Below are positions 25,135 through 33,163 of a DNA stretch of 33,518 nt, piece after piece. A model generated the notes under the pieces. The model was not told where the DNA came from, searched no databases, and saw nothing but the letters and a program-made list of their open reading frames with translations. The stretch spans positions 1 to 33,518 of the forward strand of contig ONVI01000032.1 in the NCBI GenBank assembly GCA_900321275.1. The letters run 5' to 3'. Both the position numbers and the translations under genes were made by a program. The DNA comes from an uncultured Eubacteriales bacterium (GTDB lineage Bacteria; Bacillota; Clostridia; Oscillospirales; Oscillospiraceae). Numbering within the stretch: the first letter of the stretch is position 1; every line of letters begins with the position of its first letter.

Positions 25135-26604
25135 ATGGTAAGCTTTTTCGCATGTTTTGCAATCCTTGTCTGCGGCTATTTCTTCTATGGCAAGTTCGTA
25201 GACAGCGTCTTCAATCCTGACGACCGCGAGACTCCCGCTGTCGCCATTAACGACGGTATCGACTATGTCGTGCTGCCCCAGTGGAAGCTGTTCATGATTC
25301 AGCTTCTGAATATCGCGGGCCTCGGCCCCATCTTCGGCGCTCTGTCCGGCGCCATGTGGGGACCTGTGGTTTTCCTGTGGATCACCTTCGGTACTGTTTT
25401 CGCCGGCGCTGTTCATGACTACTTTGCCGGCATGCTGTCCGAGCGCAACAACGGCGCCTCCATCTCCGAGGTCACCGGCATCTACCTCGGCGGCACGATG
25501 AAGAACGTCATGCGCGTCTTCTCCGTCATCCTGCTGATCATGGTCGGCACCGTCTTCGCCGTCGGCCCCGCCGGCCTGCTTGTCACCCTGTTCAAGAACA
25601 GCGGCGTCGAGAGCGGTATCGTCCTCAAGCCCGCCTTCTGGCTCGCGATCATCCTGATCTACTACTTCATCGCGACCTTCATCTCCGTTGACAAGGTCAT
25701 CGGCAAGATTTACCCCCTGTTCGGCATCTGCCTGATCGTCATGGCTGTCGGCGTTGCTTTCGGCACCGTCGTCCACGGCGGCATCCCCGAGATCTTCGCC
25801 AACTTCACCAACATGCACCCCAAGGGAACCCCGATCTGGGCCTTCATGTTCATCACCGTCGCCTGCGGCGCTATCTCCGGCTTCCATGCCACCCAGTCTC
25901 CTCTGATGGCCCGCTGCCTGAAGTCTGAGCGCCAGGGCCACTTCGTGTTCTACGGCGCCATGGTCGCCGAAGGCATCATCGCCCTGATCTGGGCCGCCGC
26001 CGGCGTGACCCTGCTCGGCGTCGACAAACTCTCCGAGATGGGCGGCGGCAACGCCAACTCCGTCTACACCATCTGCACCATGACCATGGGCAAGATCGGC
26101 ATCATCCTCGCCATGCTCGGCGTTATCGCCTGCCCCATCACCTCCGGCGATACCGCGTTCCGCTCCGCCCGTCTGACCCTCGCCGACTGGTTCAAGCTCG
26201 ACATGGGCAACTGGAAGACCCGTCTGGCCCTCTGCGTCCCCGTGCTTGGCATCGGCGCCATCCTCGGCTTCGGCAACACCCTCGGCTTCATCGACTACCA
26301 GATCATCTGGCGTTACTTCTCCTGGTCCAACCAGACCCTCGCCATGATCGTTCTGTGGGCGGGCGCGATGTACCTGGCCCAGAACAAGCGCAACTACTGG
26401 ATCTGCGCCGTCCCCGCCACCTTCATGAGCGCCGTCTCCTGCACCTACTTCATGATGGCCGGCGAGTGCATGGGCCTTATCGAGCTCTTCAAGAACAACA
26501 AGACGATCGGCTACCCCGTCGGCCTTATCTTCGCCGCCGGCTGCCTCGCCCTGTTCCTGACCAAGGCCAAGAGGGCTGTCGCCCAGGCTGCAAAGGTCGC
26601 GTAA
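25135..26604 (+). CDS. cstA: CstA-family carbon starvation / peptide or pyruvate transporter
   Basis: Polytopic inner-membrane transporter of 489 residues, the short CstA form (E. coli CstA and BtsT have about 700). Family marks are the N-terminal YFFYGKFVDSVFNPDD, QLLNIAGLGPIFGALSGAMWGP, FGTVFAGAVHDYFAGMLSERNNGASISE, FHATQSPLMARCL and CPITSGDTAFRSARLTLADW. CstA proteins carry peptides, and relatives BtsT and YjiY-type take up pyruvate; which applies here is open. The ATG follows TTAGGAGGAAGAAAC, a strong ribosome site. Codons end in C to a striking degree across most of the gene, suggesting high expression. The gene has its own promoter and terminator and is not tied to a two-component system in this window. 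Confidence 0.92.
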   Translation: MVSFFACFAILVCGYFFYGKFVDSVFNPDDRETPAVAINDGIDYVVLPQWKLFMIQLLNIAGLGPIFGALSGAMWGPVVFLWITFGTVFAGAVHDYFAGMLSERNNGASISEVTGIYLGGTMKNVMRVFSVILLIMVGTVFAVGPAGLLVTLFKNSGVESGIVLKPAFWLAIILIYYFIATFISVDKVIGKIYPLFGICLIVMAVGVAFGTVVHGGIPEIFANFTNMHPKGTPIWAFMFITVACGAISGFHATQSPLMARCLKSERQGHFVFYGAMVAEGIIALIWAAAGVTLLGVDKLSEMGGGNANSVYTICTMTMGKIGIILAMLGVIACPITSGDTAFRSARLTLADWFKLDMGNWKTRLALCVPVLGIGAILGFGNTLGFIDYQIIWRYFSWSNQTLAMIVLWAGAMYLAQNKRNYWICAVPATFMSAVSCTYFMMAGECMGLIELFKNNKTIGYPVGLIFAAGCLALFLTKAKRAVAQAAKVA

Positions 26605-26645: not shown

Positions 26646-26675
26646 GGGCCTGTGAAAAGCTCTTTTCACAGGCCC
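26646..26675 (+). terminator. cstA terminator
   Basis: 14-bp stem (26646-26659 with 26662-26675), tight loop, followed by TTTTGTTTGG, 42 bases after the cstA stop. Confidence 0.88.
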
Positions 26676-26691
26676 TTTTGTTTGGTATAAT
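26663..26691 (+). promoter_or_regulatory. Possible extended -10 promoter for the MoxR cluster
   Basis: TGGTATAAT (TG-n plus TATAAT at 26686-26691) with a weak TTTTCA at 26663-26668, overlapping the cstA terminator. The leader to 26877 is about 180 bases and contains the repeat at 26726. Confidence 0.45.
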
Positions 26692-26725
26692 ACATGTCGC
26701 GGACAGCCCGCATTGACTCCACATC

Positions 26726-26838
26726 GTAGGGGCGATTCACGAATCGCCCGGCGGTGCAGGCTGCGCTTTCCGTGTTCGCCCGGGCGAATGCGTAAAACCG
26801 CGGTCACCCCGCGCGGGCCGTTCGTGAACGGCCCCTAC
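26726..26838. repeat. MITE-like element with terminal inverted repeats
   Basis: 113 bases. The ends GTAGGGGC...GCCC (26726-26749) and GGGC...GCCCCTAC (26815-26838) are inverted copies with 4 mismatches in 24, and each end folds on itself (GGGCGATTC-AC-GAATCGCCC and GGGCCGTTC-GT-GAACGGCCC). A third perfect palindrome, TTCGCCCGGGCGAA, is at 26775-26788. The mismatches between ends are compensated inside each hairpin. From memory this GTAGGGGC-type repeat is widespread in Oscillospiraceae genomes. No transposase is nearby. Confidence 0.72.
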
Positions 26839-26876
26839 GGAGATCTCTTCACTCTTAGAATACAGGAGGCAACCCC

Positions 26877-27893
26877 ATGATCTTCTCCCCATCCCCCATC
26901 GGGAAGAAAACGCTCGATGAGGAAAGCTTAAAAAAAGATTATAAGGCATGTCGCAAATTCGGCCCCTGCGGGGTCGGAGAGCTGGCGCTGTATCTGGGCG
27001 GGCGCTTTCTGGACAGGCGCTACTACGTCCCCTGGAAGGAAGTCAAGCGCGTGTTCAAGCGCGTCGCCATGAGTCAGGGCGGCTTTACCGGCAAGGGCAT
27101 GTTCGGCTCGATGGCCTTTCTGGTCGTGCAGCTCGGCGGCGGGACTGAGAAGGAATGCCCCTTCAAATTTGAGGCCGACGTCGACCGGCTGCTTGCCTGC
27201 GTGGAGCAGGAGCACCCCGACATCCCCACGCACAGCGTCAAGGCGCAGAACAAGCTTGCGAAGGCGGAAGCCGAAGAGGAGGCACGCTATCTCAAGGAGC
27301 TCTCGCCGGACGCGGACGCCGCGGTCAGAAAGCTCACGGAGGACCGCGATTATCTGGAGATCCGCCCCTCGCTCTGTGACGCGCTGGTCAATACCGCCAA
27401 GCAGAAGCGCGTTGTTGACAATCTCTCCCCGATGCACCGCATAATCGGCGCAGCGCTCGGCTTTCTCGGCATTGCCGCCGCGCTGTACGGCGTATACGGC
27501 CTGATTGTCGGCTCCCCTTATGCGCTGTATTTCATCATCGGGGGCGGCGCAGCCTTCTTTATGGCGCTGTCCAGCAACACCTTCCCCGGCAAATACAACA
27601 GCAAAAAGTACGCGCAGCTTCAGTGGCAGGGCGCCGTCTCCGCCATGCGCGATTATCTGAAGGGCCGCCCGTCCGTCGACGTGCCGCCCCAATACGCGCA
27701 CCCCGTCGTGCTCACACGCATGATCCGTGTGCTGCGTGAGGGCCGCGCACAGTCCTCCGGCGAGGCGCTGGACGTCGTCAAGCAGGATCTGCGCGCCCTC
27801 AACTCCTCCGTCAAGGTCTCCCAGAAGGAATACGACGAGGTGGTAGCGGTCAAGCCCCTCTTCCTCGTCTGCGATTATCAGAATGAGATCTGA
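26877..27893 (+). CDS. Two-helix membrane protein of unknown function, first gene of MoxR cluster
   Basis: Protein of 338 residues with three parts. Residues about 30-110 have a pattern like a small membrane-associated beta domain (LYLGGRFLDRRYYVPWKEVKRVFKRV, then SMAFLVVQLGG), similar in feel to bacterial PH-like domains. Residues 120-185 are a charged helical stretch (KAEAEEEARYLKEL). Two hydrophobic helices stand at about 188-210 and 214-234, and the remaining 100 residues are soluble. I recognise no named family. AGGAGG lies 7 bases before the ATG. It is followed 14 bases later by the MoxR gene, so it is probably part of the same complex, perhaps its membrane partner or target. Confidence 0.85.
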   Translation: MIFSPSPIGKKTLDEESLKKDYKACRKFGPCGVGELALYLGGRFLDRRYYVPWKEVKRVFKRVAMSQGGFTGKGMFGSMAFLVVQLGGGTEKECPFKFEADVDRLLACVEQEHPDIPTHSVKAQNKLAKAEAEEEARYLKELSPDADAAVRKLTEDRDYLEIRPSLCDALVNTAKQKRVVDNLSPMHRIIGAALGFLGIAAALYGVYGLIVGSPYALYFIIGGGAAFFMALSSNTFPGKYNSKKYAQLQWQGAVSAMRDYLKGRPSVDVPPQYAHPVVLTRMIRVLREGRAQSSGEALDVVKQDLRALNSSVKVSQKEYDEVVAVKPLFLVCDYQNEI

Positions 27894-27907
27894 AAAGGAT
27901 AACAACC

Positions 27908-28831
27908 ATGGAACAGATACTTTCTTTTCTTGAATCCGAGGGCGTGGACAAGACCCTGCTCGACGGGGTGCGCGCCTTCCGCGCAAAGTACCCGACCGAG
28001 GCAGAAAGCGCCCCCCGCGTCCCGAATCCCGAATATTATTACTACGGCATAAAGACCTGGGAGCTGGCACTGGCCGCGATTCTGGCGGGAAAGAACCTCC
28101 TGCTGGCCGGGCCCAAGGCCACCGGCAAGAACGTGCTGAGCGAAAACCTCGGCGCGCTGTTCGGCCGCCCGGTCTGGAACGTCTCCTTCCATATCAATAC
28201 CGACGCCGCCTATCTGGTCGGCACCGACACCTACGACGGAAACCGCGTCACCTTCCGCCCCGGGCCGATCTGGCTCTGCGCGGCGAAGGGCGGCTTTGGC
28301 ATCCTCGACGAGATCAACATGGCGAAGAACGAAGCCCTCGCCGTGCTGCACGCGGCGCTTGACTTCCGCCGCAGCCTGGACGTGGCGGGCTATGAGAAGA
28401 TCGACCTGCGCCCCGAGACGCGCTTCATCGCCACGATGAACTACGGCTACGCCGGGACGCGCGATCTGAACGAGGCCTTGACGAGCCGCTTCGCGGTGCT
28501 GGATATGCCGGTCATCTCCGAGGAGAATCTGCAAAAGCTCATCTCCCGCCGCTATCCCGCCATCAGCGTCAAGATCCGCGATCAGCTTGTGAAGCTCTAC
28601 GGAGAGCTGGAGCGCAAGGCCGAGAGCGCCGAGATTTCCGACTCCGCCCTCGACCTCCGCGGCCTGCTGGACGCCATCGCGCTTATGGAGCAGGGGCTCC
28701 GCTCCGGCGACGCGCTGGACATGTGCATCGTCAACAAGAGCTTTGACGCATACGAGCGCGGGCTGATCCGCGACGTGATCAGCGCCCGCATTCCCGCCGA
28801 CCTCACGCGCGGCGACGTATTTGTGAAATGA
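27908..28831 (+). CDS. MoxR-family AAA+ ATPase
   Basis: Hexameric AAA+ ATPase of 307 residues that uses ATP to remodel or activate protein partners. Walker A is GPKATGKN (68-75), an unusual but MoxR-like form ending in N instead of T/S; Walker B is GILDEIN (131-137); sensor 1 is ATMN (175-178); the arginine finger is likely R194 in LTSRF. The MoxR-type insert around VAGYEKIDLRP is present. Its C-terminus overlaps the VWA protein start by 4 bases (ATGA), the arrangement of RavA/ViaA and other MoxR-VWA pairs. A GAAAAGGAT sequence precedes the ATG. Substrate is unknown. Confidence 0.9.
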   Translation: MEQILSFLESEGVDKTLLDGVRAFRAKYPTEAESAPRVPNPEYYYYGIKTWELALAAILAGKNLLLAGPKATGKNVLSENLGALFGRPVWNVSFHINTDAAYLVGTDTYDGNRVTFRPGPIWLCAAKGGFGILDEINMAKNEALAVLHAALDFRRSLDVAGYEKIDLRPETRFIATMNYGYAGTRDLNEALTSRFAVLDMPVISEENLQKLISRRYPAISVKIRDQLVKLYGELERKAESAEISDSALDLRGLLDAIALMEQGLRSGDALDMCIVNKSFDAYERGLIRDVISARIPADLTRGDVFVK

Positions 28832-30552
28832 TTAAGAAACAGTATTCGGGCTCTGCGCGCAGGGCCCGGAACATCATCTGGAACGCCGCGGGGCGCTACG
28901 ACTTCGATCCGCCCTTCATGGCCTTCTTTGCCAACGGTCATCCCGATCAGTATTTCAACATGGTTGCGGGGCTGGTTCAGAAATGGCTGGACATGCCGCG
29001 GCTGTGGGATTTTTTCCTCAGCTATGAGGGCGACCGCCGTTCCGACGAGTTTGACGATTACCTCTGGCTGGGGCTGGAAAACTGCGTCTATGAGAAGGAG
29101 CTGAAGGAGCGCCCGATCCTCGAGGCGCTGCGCCGCAAACGGGGCGAGCTGTTTTTCGTCGAGCAGCAGCAGATGTCCCGCCAGCAGATGGAATACCAGA
29201 GCATGCCGGTCTTCACCCAGCAGGAATACCGCTGGGCGAGCGTCTGCGGCAAGCGCCCTCCTCTGCTCACGCCGCGCGAAAACAAGATCGCCGAGGCGCT
29301 CCGGTTTTCAGGCGATCTGGACACCGACGGCGTGATCGCGGCCATGCGGAATTTTCTCCAGGGCTTTTTCCGCTTTACGCCCGGCGACGAAATTAGAATC
29401 CGCAAGGCCACGCCGCTCTCAAAGCTGCTTTTCAGGCACGAAACCAAACGCCGCGACCGGCTTCTGGTCCGTGCCGGCACCGGCGAGGGCGACCATGAAA
29501 AGGCGCGGCAGCAGCGGCATGCCGGGCTCGGCCGTCACGTCGGCCCCGGGCCGGAGGATGAGGCGTATATCCGCGCGGTCTTCGGCCGGTGCTGCCTCTC
29601 CGATCAGGAGATGCGCATCCTGGAAAATGAGCTCTGCGTCGGCGACGATGAGCTTTGCCGCCTCTGGGTCACGAAGGGCGAGTCGGTGGATACCGCCGAT
29701 AAAGACGCGCTGGAGGTGCGCGAAAGCGCCCGGCGTCAGCAAAAACGCAACGAGGCGTTTCTTGCGGAGCACGCCGCAATGGTCGAGGGCAGCGTCCGCG
29801 CGCTCTCCACCCGGATCGAGACCATCTTTTCCTCATACTTCAAGCATCTGCCGGAGGCCGCAAAAGCCGGGCGCATCCGGCCGGAAGCCGCCTGGCGTCT
29901 GCCGGTGCTGGACGACGCCATGGTCTTCCTCAAAAACGGCGAGGATACGGAGCCGGAGCTCTGCGTCGACCTGCTGCTGGACGCCTCGCAGTCGCGCATG
30001 CACTCGCAGGAAGTGCTGTCCGCCGAGGGCTTCATCATCGCCAAAAGCCTTGCAAAGCTGCACATCCCCGTGCGGGTCAGTGCGTTTCGCAGCATCCGAA
30101 GCTATACGGTGCTGGAAATTCTCAAGGACCGGAAGCAGGCGGACTGCCGCGGACTGCTGCGCTACTTTGCGGGCGGCTGGAACCGCGACGGCCTGGCGGT
30201 TGAAACGCTCGGACGGCTGGACGATGATGACGCCATGCGCGGCAAACAACGCATCCTGCTTGTGCTGACCGACGGCAGCCCCAATGATTCCACGCCGCTT
30301 CCTTCCTCCGGCCTGTTGATGGAGCGCGAGTACGAGGGCGAGGCGGCGGTCAAATCCGCGCAGGAGGCAGTCAAGCGTCTGCGCGAAAAGGGCGTGCGCG
30401 TCGGCGCGGTCTTCCACGGCAACAGCTCCCATCTGGAGAACATACACCGCATCTACGGTCACGCCTACGTGCGCATCCAGAAGGCCAACCAGCTCGCCCA
30501 GGGCGTGAGTGATCTTTTGCTCATGCTGCTGCGTGAGATGCGAACGGACTGA
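28828..30552 (+). CDS. VWA-domain protein, MoxR partner (CoxE/ViaA-like)
   Basis: Cytosolic protein of 574 residues with a C-terminal von Willebrand A domain from about 370. The metal site is D385-A-S-Q-S389 (DxSxS), with D453/G454 in WNRDG as the third-loop analogue and TDGSPND (481-487) supplying the last aspartate. The N-terminal 360 residues are helical, with a basic GHEK-rich loop (about 216-240) that looks flexible. MoxR-VWA pairs are known to act as metal-insertion or complex-assembly chaperones, and the VWA part recruits the client. It overlaps the MoxR gene by 4 bases and ends 95 bases before the next promoter. The client is not visible here. Confidence 0.88.
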   Translation: MIKKQYSGSARRARNIIWNAAGRYDFDPPFMAFFANGHPDQYFNMVAGLVQKWLDMPRLWDFFLSYEGDRRSDEFDDYLWLGLENCVYEKELKERPILEALRRKRGELFFVEQQQMSRQQMEYQSMPVFTQQEYRWASVCGKRPPLLTPRENKIAEALRFSGDLDTDGVIAAMRNFLQGFFRFTPGDEIRIRKATPLSKLLFRHETKRRDRLLVRAGTGEGDHEKARQQRHAGLGRHVGPGPEDEAYIRAVFGRCCLSDQEMRILENELCVGDDELCRLWVTKGESVDTADKDALEVRESARRQQKRNEAFLAEHAAMVEGSVRALSTRIETIFSSYFKHLPEAAKAGRIRPEAAWRLPVLDDAMVFLKNGEDTEPELCVDLLLDASQSRMHSQEVLSAEGFIIAKSLAKLHIPVRVSAFRSIRSYTVLEILKDRKQADCRGLLRYFAGGWNRDGLAVETLGRLDDDDAMRGKQRILLVLTDGSPNDSTPLPSSGLLMEREYEGEAAVKSAQEAVKRLREKGVRVGAVFHGNSSHLENIHRIYGHAYVRIQKANQLAQGVSDLLLMLLREMRTD

Positions 30553-30590
30553 TCCCCTTCGCCCTATCCGTCAATTTTCGGAAAAACTCC

Positions 30591-30619
30591 TTGCGTCAGA
30601 ACAAAGGGAATATTATAAT
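30591..30619 (+). promoter_or_regulatory. Promoter of the CbxX-type ATPase
   Basis: TTGCGT (30591-30596), 17-base spacer, perfect TATAAT (30614-30619); leader about 30 bases with AAGGAG. It gives the fourth gene of the cluster independent expression. Confidence 0.75.
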
Positions 30620-30655
30620 AACCAAGTATGCTAACATATAAAGGAGATGTCCGCC

Positions 30656-32149
30656 ATGCCTACCACCTGGACCCGTACCCCGGATGAATTTCATAAAATC
30701 TATATCGCCAATACCGACGCCTTCTACCGTCTCGGCGGCTATTCGATGGCGAAGGAGCTGGACGAGTTTATGACCCGCTGCGCCCTGAATCTGTGGAGCA
30801 AAGGCGGCGGCATCACCCAGCGCCATGTGGATATGGCGAACCAGATCTATTCCCGCAATCAGCCCCAGCCCAAGTGGCTGCTCTGGTCGCTGACGGGCTC
30901 CATCGTGGAGGGCGAGGTCTTCATGCCTCCCGTTTTCTTCTGGAACCTCGCCGAGAGCGACGCAAAGCGCGGCACCGAGGCTTCGCGCACGTTCATCCGC
31001 ATGCTGACCAATATCCTCCTGTACCTCGCCGCCGTAGACGACGACGTGACCTATGAGGAGGCCGCGTTCATTACCGAATGCACCGACAAGCTCGGCGCCA
31101 TCTGCGACACCACCGGCGTGCGCAAGAGCAAGGAGCCGCTCGATCCCCTGGAGTTTGTCACCAGCGGGGAGCCGAGCTTCCTGGAAAAGCACAAGCAGCA
31201 GACCCAGACCACCGGCGGCGAGGAGGCTTCAAAGTCCGACGAAAAAGAGGAAGAGGCCCCGAAGCCCAGCTATGACGAGCTCATGAGCCAGCTTGAGGAT
31301 CTGGTCGGCCTGGAGGATATCAAGAAGGATATCAAAAATCTCATGAACCTTGTGAAGGTCCGCAAGCTGCGCGAGCAGAACGAGCTGCCTGTCCCGCCCA
31401 TGAGCCTGCACATGGTTTTCCTGGGCAATCCCGGCACCGGCAAGACAACCGTCGCCCGCATCGTCGCCGGTCTCTACGCCGCCATCGGCGTATTGGAGAA
31501 GGGCCAGCTTGTGGAGGTCGACCGCTCCGGCCTGGTGGCGGGCTATGTGGGGCAGACCGCGCTCAAGACGCAGGAGGTCATCAAAAAGGCCCTCGGCGGC
31601 GTATTGTTCATCGACGAGGCGTATTCCCTTTCCTCCGGCGGGGAGAACGACTTCGGCCGCGAAGCCATCGAAACCATCCTCAAGGCGATGGAGGATCACC
31701 GCAAAGATCTGGTCGTCATCGTCGCGGGCTACACCGGGCCGATGGAGCGTTTCATGAACTCCAATCCGGGCCTCGAATCCCGCTTCAACAAGTACTTCTT
31801 CTTCCCTGACTACAACGGGGAGCAGCTCATGGCGATCTTCCGCATCCAGTGCAAAAAGAACGGCTACACGCTCACCGAGGAGGCCGACAAAAAAGCGACC
31901 GCGTTCTTCACGGAGCTTTATGCCAATCGCGGCGAAAACTTCGGCAACGGCCGCGACGTGCGCAACTGCTTCGAGGACATGGTGGTCTCGCAGTCCAACC
32001 GCGTAGCCGCGATGGAGAACCCGAGCAAGGAGGATCTCATGACCGTCCTGCCCGAGGATCTGGACATCGAGGGCGACGATGAAGAGGACGCGAAAGAAGA
32101 AGCGCAAGAAGAAGCGGCAGAGACGCCGAAAAAGAAAAAAGACAAATGA
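30656..32149 (+). CDS. CbxX/CfxQ-type AAA+ ATPase with TerB-like N-terminal domain
   Basis: Protein of 497 residues from ATG 30656; AAGGAG stands 9 bases before it, whereas the ATG at 30647 abuts the ribosome site. The N-terminal 150 residues include NILLYLAAVDDDVTYEEAAFI, which resembles the acidic TerB/tellurite-resistance helix repeat. A charged linker (about 180-205) leads to the AAA+ core: GNPGTGKT (257-264), pore-loop-like GYVGQTA, VLFIDEA (316-322), GLESRF as arginine-finger region and PDYNGEQL. The C-terminus is strongly acidic then lysine-rich (DDEEDAKEEAQEEAAETPKKKKDK). CbxX/SpoVK-type ATPases remodel protein complexes; the role is unknown here. The stop codon is inside the terminator stem. 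Confidence 0.9.
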   Translation: MPTTWTRTPDEFHKIYIANTDAFYRLGGYSMAKELDEFMTRCALNLWSKGGGITQRHVDMANQIYSRNQPQPKWLLWSLTGSIVEGEVFMPPVFFWNLAESDAKRGTEASRTFIRMLTNILLYLAAVDDDVTYEEAAFITECTDKLGAICDTTGVRKSKEPLDPLEFVTSGEPSFLEKHKQQTQTTGGEEASKSDEKEEEAPKPSYDELMSQLEDLVGLEDIKKDIKNLMNLVKVRKLREQNELPVPPMSLHMVFLGNPGTGKTTVARIVAGLYAAIGVLEKGQLVEVDRSGLVAGYVGQTALKTQEVIKKALGGVLFIDEAYSLSSGGENDFGREAIETILKAMEDHRKDLVVIVAGYTGPMERFMNSNPGLESRFNKYFFFPDYNGEQLMAIFRIQCKKNGYTLTEEADKKATAFFTELYANRGENFGNGRDVRNCFEDMVVSQSNRVAAMENPSKEDLMTVLPEDLDIEGDDEEDAKEEAQEEAAETPKKKKDK

Positions 32150-32190
32150 ACACAACAGGGGAGCCCGTCCGGGCTCCCCTGTTGTGTTCA
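32147..32190. terminator. Perfect 20-bp bidirectional terminator
   Basis: Arms 32147-32166 and 32171-32190 are fully complementary around GTCC. The left arm includes the TGA of the ATPase gene, and the right arm ends 2 bases before the kinase stop, so the hairpin closes both convergent genes with almost no spare sequence. Confidence 0.92.
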
Positions 32191-32191
32191 T

Positions 32192-33163
32192 TCAAATTCT
32201 TGCCAGCAGCTCGTTTACCTGCTCCCGCTCGGGCATGGAACGGATCGCGCCCTTCTTCGTGGTGACGATATAGGCGGCGGTGTTGGCAAAGCGCAGCATT
32301 GCGCGCAGATCGTCGTCGGTGAGCCCGTCGATCCCATGCTCCAGCACGAAGCTCAGCACACTTGCGCAGAAGGTATCGCCCGCGCCGGTGGTCTCGATCA
32401 CGCCGCCCAGCTTGCAGGCCGGGACAAAGACGTGCCTGCCGTCATAAAAGCTGTGGCTCCCGTCGCCCCCGGCGGTGACGTTCAGCACGCGGATGTTGGG
32501 GAAGCGCTCCTTCAGCGCGGCCGCGCCCTTGTCGAAATCCGTCTCGCCTGTCATGAACTCAATCTCGTTATCCGCGATCTTGAGAACGTCACAGCGGGCG
32601 AGTCCCCACTGAATGGCTTCCTTCGCGCTCTTATCGTCCGGCCAGAGGGGCGGGCGGAGGTTCGGATCGAAGGAGATCAGCGCCCCGGCCTCCTTGGCAA
32701 TCTCCCAGGCGCGGATCGTGGCGCTCTTGCACGGCTCGTCCGTCAGGGAAAGGGTGCCGAAATGGAAAATGCGGCAGCTTTTCAGCATCTCCTCGTCCAG
32801 CTCGTCCGGGCGCAGCATGATGTCGGCGCCGGGCTTGCGGTAGAAGCTGAAATCCCGGTCGCCGTTGGGGAAGGTGTGCACCACCGCCAGCGTCGTGGGG
32901 ATCTCCGGGTCGCGTCTGAGAGAGGAAATGTCAATTCCCGCCTCCTGCACCGTGGCGGCCAGCATATCGCCGAAGCTGTCCTGTCCCACCTTGCCGATGA
33001 AGGCGCAGTTTTTGCCGAGCTTGCGCAGCATCGCCAGCACATTTGCGGGCGCGCCGCCGGGGTTTGCCTCGAAGAGAAGATTGCCCTGTTCGCTCAGACC
33101 ATTCTGGGTAAAATCGACCAGCAGCTCGCCCAGGGCGACAACGTCATATTTTATATTTTGCAT
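32192..33163 (-). CDS. PfkB-family carbohydrate kinase, probable fructokinase
   Basis: Sugar kinase of 323 residues from ATG 33163, preceded by AGGAAG; longer frames upstream have no ribosome site and no PfkB similarity. Signatures are GELLVDF near residue 12, NPGGAPANVLAMLRKLG (34-50, PfkB signature 1) and TTGAGDTFCASVL (signature 2, with the catalytic aspartate in GAGD) near residue 265-277. The NPGGAPANVA-like motif and the 320-residue length match clostridial fructokinases (ScrK type), which phosphorylate fructose released from sucrose or fructans. The upstream neighbour is the end of a probable glycoside hydrolase, which fits. Other sugars, such as ribose or 2-keto-3-deoxygluconate, cannot be excluded. 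Confidence 0.88.
   Translation of the reverse strand: MQNIKYDVVALGELLVDFTQNGLSEQGNLLFEANPGGAPANVLAMLRKLGKNCAFIGKVGQDSFGDMLAATVQEAGIDISSLRRDPEIPTTLAVVHTFPNGDRDFSFYRKPGADIMLRPDELDEEMLKSCRIFHFGTLSLTDEPCKSATIRAWEIAKEAGALISFDPNLRPPLWPDDKSAKEAIQWGLARCDVLKIADNEIEFMTGETDFDKGAAALKERFPNIRVLNVTAGGDGSHSFYDGRHVFVPACKLGGVIETTGAGDTFCASVLSFVLEHGIDGLTDDDLRAMLRFANTAAYIVTTKKGAIRSMPEREQVNELLARI

Follow-up and report, generated by a model that had tools for sequence, protein, structure and literature searches.

A CstA-family transporter genetically linked to g1 and a MoxR-VWA ATPase pair in Clostridia, and its candidacy, with g1, as client of the pair

MoxR-VWA pairs, in which an AAA+ ATPase works with a VWA protein, are widespread, and few have a known client. 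A 33,518-nucleotide stretch from an uncultured Eubacteriales bacterium (assembly GCA_900321275.1, contig ONVI01000032.1; hereafter the window, meaning the whole stretch) raises the question of what such a pair acts on. The first-pass annotation of this DNA described a unit of four genes, encoding a two-helix membrane protein (here g1), a MoxR ATPase, a VWA protein and a TerB-CbxX ATPase, with no obvious metalloenzyme client adjacent and the target open. Overlooked in that account was a gene for a short CstA-family transporter, of the pyruvate/peptide type, 272 bases upstream of g1, on the same strand and beyond the limits then drawn, which is the best client candidate. CstA, g1, MoxR and VWA constitute a conserved, genetically linked and repeatedly rearranged gene set. 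These genes very probably form one functional module, and the chances that CstA with g1 is the client are about even; client, contact and outcome are what we infer.

Relatives of the VWA protein were scanned in one genome per species, giving 276 stretches, of which the best 80 were kept as named loci. By their record names, these derive mainly from ruminant and gut Oscillospiraceae (or Ruminococcaceae) and Lachnospiraceae, and include Faecalibacterium, Gemmiger, Blautia and Clostridium vitabionis. Some redundancy is present (L124, L127, L154, L175 and L192 are, judged by length, contigs of genomes of the window's genus; L154-L156 are near copies), and near-identical sequences were removed before the g1-CstA counts, the MoxR tree and the intergenic-gap analysis. 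Both g1 and the MoxR-VWA pair were found in one locus in 56 of the 80, 54 of which also carry CstA; in the two where CstA was not seen (L173 and L175), g1 lies at a contig edge. The order CstA-g1-MoxR-VWA accounts for 42 loci, MoxR-VWA-CstA-g1 for 6 (Faecalibacterium), a second CstA between g1 and MoxR for 2, and g1-VWA-MoxR for 1 (L173), the remainder following the commonest order but with one gene split or truncated. Linkage is thus kept through rearrangement, which argues against mere inherited synteny.

Among nonredundant g1 sequences in the loci examined, a short CstA lies within 600 bases upstream in 73 of 75 testable cases, two additional sequences at contig edges being outside this count. 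The exceptions are the second piece of a split g1 (L117) and L118, where CstA lies further upstream. The split in L117 (4071-5086), a sibling genome, runs over two frames and reflects either a break or an assembly error. No g1 was found nearby in 24 loci from 23 genomes. Fifteen of these genomes carry a full g1 elsewhere (G459 as two pieces), and three only its N-terminal part: in G456 and G458 g1 has shrunk to the PH-like part, still directly 3' of CstA, and in G457 a second CstA beside MoxR-VWA reaches the contig end, beyond which a full g1 may lie. Eighteen cases from these genomes were fetched, and every one has g1 or its part directly 3' of a short CstA. For the fifteen, MoxR starts right beside g1 and the locus is merely cut by contig ends in five (G464, G465, G466, G468 and G469), contig ends leave the arrangement undecidable in G454 and G455, the two halves share a contig about 9 kb apart in G459, and in seven (G447-G453) CstA-g1 occupies one contig and MoxR-VWA another, neither having its partner in the flanking sequence read. 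Some CstA match was obtained in each of 25 genomes searched, but G467 and G266 have the long type alone; the short CstA of G460, G461 and G463 has 38-40% identity.

The layout of the window is given in Table 1. The four open reading frames of the first description do lie in series, and the same four were predicted by a codon-bias gene caller whose training genes include three of them. The tight coupling was likewise seen, with a 14-base gap between g1 and MoxR and a 4-base ATGA overlap between MoxR and VWA. The CstA product passes PF02554 at 177 bits (cut-off 27), and no credible PDB relatives of it were found. The protein g1 appears to consist of a PH-like domain and a transmembrane (TM) hairpin; for the former, Foldseek alone gave no match below E 0.001. 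Hydropathy recovers the two helices first proposed in 69 of 71 homologues, with one segment in the other 2, and the absence of any Pfam or NCBIfam match at E<=1 bears out the earlier assignment to no known family. The promoter-like site is a possible start of the g1-MoxR-VWA unit, as read from sequence. Between CstA and g1, positions 26723-26842 hold a palindromic repeat-like stretch with the ends GTAGGGGCGAT... and ...GGCCCCTACG, which may be a small mobile element.

Table 1 Features around the CstA-g1-MoxR-VWA set, with positions in the window
Feature	Position	Strand	Support
Short CstA-family transporter, 489 aa (PF02554)	25135-26604	+	Pfam CstA, E 8.8e-52
Terminator-like hairpin, 13-bp stem, 3' of CstA	26646-26675	+	Pattern scan
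Promoter-like site, extended -10, TTTTCA-17-TATAAT	26663-26691	+	Pattern scan only
g1, 338 aa: predicted N-terminal PH-like domain (~19-123), helices, TM hairpin (~185-232), C-terminal helices	26877-27893	+	
MoxR-type AAA+ ATPase, 307 aa, GKN Walker A	27908-28831	+	AAA_5, E 3.2e-18
VWA partner, 574 aa: helical N-terminal part, low-confidence stretch (~187-238), beta-hairpin at the NorD finger position, VWA domain	28828-30552	+	Model pLDDT 77, pTM 0.57
CbxX/SpoVK-like AAA+ ATPase, 500 aa, chance neighbour outside the unit	30647-32149	+	TIGR02881, E 6.6e-90, below cut-off

The character of the ATPase pair was assessed over 105 nonredundant MoxR rows standing beside a VWA in the loci examined. 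The Walker A ending in N, flagged at first pass as unusual, is a family trait and not a quirk: GKN occurs in 105/105 rows, in place of the canonical GK[S/T]. We take GKN as a Walker A variant because the other AAA+ motifs are kept, with the Walker lysine, the Walker B D/E, the sensor-1 N and the arginine finger each present in every row. The window protein has the make-up of the MoxR class, one AAA+ module bearing both Walker motifs, sensor 1 and the arginine finger. The MIDAS motif of the VWA protein had been called intact, which holds for DxSxS (105/105) and the final D (104/105, with one gap) but not for the Thr position, where N occurs in 101 rows, S in 3 and a gap in 1; no row therefore shows the full DxSxS-T-D pattern, and CobT likewise has N at this position. 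A frameshift near residues 200-240 of the VWA gene was considered and rejected: the stretch is common to close relatives, and the frame is therefore intact. The MoxR profile reaches CbbQ/NorQ and midasin, aligning with the latter through the region where a clade 7 helix-2 insert would lie, while the VWA profile reaches NorD and CobT and the modelled VWA fold is nearest to those of NorD and midasin. Sequence and predicted fold together identify the two proteins as an AAA+/VWA pair of the NorQD/CobST/midasin type.

Comparison with described systems indicates what such a pair might do. MoxR-vWA-beta-propeller ternary systems, reportedly described for bpMoxR in eLife in 2020, resemble the present set in adding parts to a MoxR-VWA core; for the MoxR of the window, no match to bpMoxR was returned at E<=1, and the partner here is a transporter. 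RavA-ViaA is reportedly also a MoxR-VWA pair acting on membrane enzymes, but no RavA or ViaA chain was among the PDB profile matches at the cut-offs used, the two not having been compared directly. The AAA+ profile reaches CbbQ (E 2e-18 and 5e-14), several midasin (Rea1/MDN1) AAA domains and, weakly, CobS (E 0.0011); the VWA profile reaches CobT (E 5.6e-6), which shares N at the MIDAS Thr, and the VWA model matches the midasin MIDAS domain. Unlike CbbQ-CbbO and CobS-CobT, the window pair neighbours a transporter, CstA (Rubisco, CbbO and the third chelatase subunit CobN were not searched for), and unlike midasin, one giant eukaryotic protein, it comprises two small separate proteins. A parallel in layout is NorQ-NorD: both combine a single-module MoxR-class AAA+ with a VWA partner, their genes stand beside that of a polytopic membrane protein, and the modelled VWA partner may share the NorD architecture, with an N-terminal part, a low-confidence middle, a hairpin before the core and a C-terminal VWA domain. 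They differ in that the window pair (like that of the 54 loci above) neighbours CstA and not norCB, has an additional PH-TM protein and a GKN Walker A, and carries N at the MIDAS Thr where NorD has T in the aligned YTRLG stretch. NorQD is an AAA+/VWA pair that remodels a membrane enzyme by means of a finger inserted into the AAA+ pore and a linker that is stretched (PMC13036017). A precedent on the transporter side comes from E. coli, where CstA-dependent pyruvate uptake also needs YbdD, a protein of unknown function (PMC5847655). YbdD is small, whereas g1, at 338 residues, combines PH-like and TM parts and is accompanied by an ATPase pair. The open-licence literature, in the searches made, yielded no account of the CstA-g1-MoxR-VWA set, in keeping with the earlier statement that the system was not a described one.

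By analogy with NorQD and CstA-YbdD, the pair would most likely remodel CstA-g1. The best explanation is that a CstA-family transporter is matured or activated by an ATP-driven machine of its own, a NorQD-like remodeller dedicated to CstA-g1, and we regard this reading as equally likely to be right or wrong. In such a machine, the pore of a MoxR hexamer would take the VWA hairpin, as the NorD finger enters NorQ. Anchored by its TM hairpin, g1 would sit with CstA, its PH-like domain docking the VWA protein or the membrane surface. ATP hydrolysis would then twist or stretch the VWA protein against the CstA-g1 complex and remodel CstA into an active state, perhaps by releasing a blocked state or loading an ion. 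In genomes that have it, a family-less protein of about 112 residues may act as carrier of a factor. Should this reading hold, nutrient transporters would join redox and CO2-fixing enzymes among the targets of ATP-driven remodelling, and a first role would be assigned to g1 and to the ~112-residue protein. The genetics here points MoxR-VWA to a specific, common transporter family. According to record names, cultured carriers include Clostridium vitabionis, with the set in a row, and Gemmiger strains, with the halves apart, so client identity is testable by uptake and pull-down assays.

The distribution of the genes bears on this reading from both sides. Within the genus, 8 of 37 genomes have short CstA, and these 8 are also the ones with full g1 (the CstA of G035 being a contig-end fragment); VWA of type A, the MoxR-VWA type of the window, occurs in 7 of these 8 and in 0/29 others; G014, which has CstA-g1 without type-A VWA, is 71% complete. 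On a CbxX marker tree of 32 genomes (5 of the 37 were left out for want of a usable CbxX row), the set was gained or lost about five times, and it may move between lineages. Along independent pairs on this tree, g1 and type-A VWA changed the same way in 3.5 of 4 on average and never oppositely (p 0.125). In a class-level survey of 391 genomes, with short CstA called at E<=1e-40 and the VWA family at E<1e-60 (10 weaker rows dropped), short CstA was found in 76 and the VWA family in 32, both together in 20 against 6.2 expected (Fisher p 2e-8, uncorrected for kinship). Full g1 occurs in 2 of the 391, both with the whole set, with weak partial matches in four more. On the tree of the 105 MoxR rows, all 55 linked rows fall within a group of 71 (support 82), which also holds 15 unlinked rows, many from genomes with CstA-g1 elsewhere, and 1 CstA-only row. 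This class pattern describes a broad MoxR-VWA pair with varied or unknown clients, the CstA-g1 link marking one branch.

Several observations weigh against a motor dedicated to CstA. Co-occurrence in the genus mostly restates linkage, because most copies share a contig, and the independent pairs are too few to decide. For G012, G034 and G035, the contigs that carry the module have close counterparts among loci from other assemblies, so mis-binning is possible and could mimic movement. In the class, 56 of the 76 short-CstA genomes are without the VWA family, hence CstA needs no motor in general, and 12 of the 32 VWA-family genomes are without short CstA. In five of the 23 genomes without g1 nearby (G460, G461, G462, G463 and G467), g1 was not found. 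Two further MoxR-VWA types in the genus, B and C (~31% and ~27% VWA identity; L077-L096, where some VWA genes are without MoxR beside them), had no constant neighbour or client among the neighbours listed, nor had the class-level pairs; together with the 12 VWA genomes without short CstA, this means that other clients exist. A terminator-like hairpin also splits CstA from g1 in the window. The last two points, and the separation of the halves in seven genomes, would fit an arrangement of shared regulation or joint movement only, in which the MoxR-VWA client lies elsewhere and CstA-g1 serves the same physiology (use of pyruvate or peptides during starvation). We consider this unlikely, as the linkage survives rearrangement in loci named as two families, and the occurrence of g1, which stands 3' of CstA, follows that of type-A MoxR-VWA as well.

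The same transcription signals bear on a second alternative, that MoxR-VWA acts on g1 rather than CstA, the motor assembling, extracting or resetting a membrane PH-domain regulator of the transporter. A terminator-like site occurs in 21 of 71 CstA-g1 gaps (4 of 370 in mononucleotide shuffles), in 0/52 g1-MoxR gaps and in 0/36 MoxR-VWA gaps, the two zeros being weak evidence because most of these gaps are short (as measured from profile end to profile end, medians of 31 and 5 nt). Judged by these sequence signals, the tighter grouping is g1-MoxR-VWA, with CstA often ending separately; moreover, g1 stands nearer to MoxR than CstA does in the most frequent order. Against g1 as the target, CstA lies between VWA and g1 in the 6 Faecalibacterium loci, and a MoxR-VWA pair stands by CstA without g1 in two class genomes (L200 3649-8073 and L201 4143-8572), which makes this alternative rather improbable. 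In L200 and L201, CstA, a CC/Se-motif-like protein and a diverged MoxR-VWA lie in series, the CC/Se-motif-like protein standing in g1's place (NF041239 match below cut-off; that of L201 also has a weak Fe-S_biosyn likeness, below cut-off). In the MoxR tree these loci form a weakly supported branch of length 1.9, and their CstA link may have arisen independently. By eye, L295 shows CstA among similar small proteins without the MoxR-VWA pair.

Metal or cofactor loading is a third alternative, in which the motor would insert an ion into CstA or an unseen client, as NorQD or CobST do, the carrier being the ~112-residue protein or, in L200/L201, the CC/Se protein; this alternative overlaps the best explanation if the ion enters CstA. 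The nearest solved relatives include metal inserters (NorQD, CobST), the ~112-residue protein has invariant GC and DPR, the L201 protein is CC/Se-like (below cut-off), and short CstA has the histidines H94 and H251. Those histidines are kept in both motor-linked and unlinked forms, and the 13 CstA positions specific to the linked form include no obvious metal site; in this comparison near copies were kept, and the 20 unlinked sequences include class genomes with MoxR-VWA elsewhere. We know of no metal site in CstA, and searches of 6 Faecalibacterium and 4 Gemmiger genomes, which have the rest of the set, did not recover the putative carrier. Metal loading as the motor's function is quite improbable, and the involvement of a metal in any form is doubtful. 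By eye, regulator-like genes lie upstream of motor-less short CstA in several loci, and in L281, L284 and L286-L289 the motor-less gene is 3' of a response-regulator-like gene, which recalls E. coli pyruvate sensing.

The ~112-residue protein often accompanies the CstA-g1-MoxR-VWA set, either 5' of CstA on the same strand or 3' of VWA on either strand. It was found in 24 of 81 loci by clustering and in 29 of the same 81 by tblastn, and carries a GCGAKLDPR motif. In the genus it is present in 6 of the 8 CstA-g1 genomes and 0/29 others, being unlinked in the window's genome (G000:C64:34880-35212; L299) and in G027. Further searches recovered it in 26 of 54 genomes, with none in the ten that lack g1 (G266, G262, G371, G369, G356, G460, G461, G462, G463 and G467). 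Family scans gave no family above cut-off, and no credible PDB relative was found. Tentatively, these data would fit a horizontally moving five-part system of CstA, g1, GKN-type MoxR, NorD-like VWA and the ~112-residue protein, in which the motor matures or gates CstA. Were that reading true, a solute transporter would for the first time have a MoxR-VWA pair dedicated to it, with ATP control placed atop transport that itself needs no ATP.

The fourth gene of the first-pass proposal does not belong to the set. A CbxX/SpoVK-like gene was matched in 33 of 36 genus relatives (E<=1e-20; a few are contig-end fragments), most of them without the rest of the set. It lies on a different contig from type-A MoxR-VWA in all six relatives with both (G012, G022, G027, G031, G034 and G035), none of the window's other genes stands beside it in 12/12 CbxX loci of relatives, and it is near the pair in 1 of the 80 named loci (L117, the 96%-identical sibling), some loci ending soon after VWA. 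The first annotation had itself named a lack of joint conservation as grounds for refutation, and for the CbxX gene this is what the relatives show. Joint action of all four products, with CbxX as a second ring, which gene order and spacing in the window and L117 would fit, is therefore extremely improbable, and the four-gene unit was rejected: the conserved unit of membrane protein and MoxR-VWA stands, the second AAA+ ring falls away. The description of gene 4 as a TerB carrier found no support either: at E<=1 its sequence matched no TerB family, in a search that did not extend to the fold. Its scores lie below the curated NCBIfam cut-offs for the SpoVK/CbbX/EccA equivalogs (300.7 against 422.95, 241.4 against 459.25 and 233.6 against 466.65 bits). 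A TATAAT occurs within the 95-nt stretch 5' of the gene. An anti-phage defence role was rejected as well: PADLOC matched gene 4 only, to judge by the ranges in its AAA+ part, and gave nothing for g1, MoxR or VWA at E<=1. Between the CbxX gene and a convergent PfkB kinase, a 20-bp hairpin with a T-rich tail lies on the minus strand (window 32145-32192). In a relative (G030:C17:70712-74083), a 1729-residue open frame holds three CbxX-type AAA+ matches in series.

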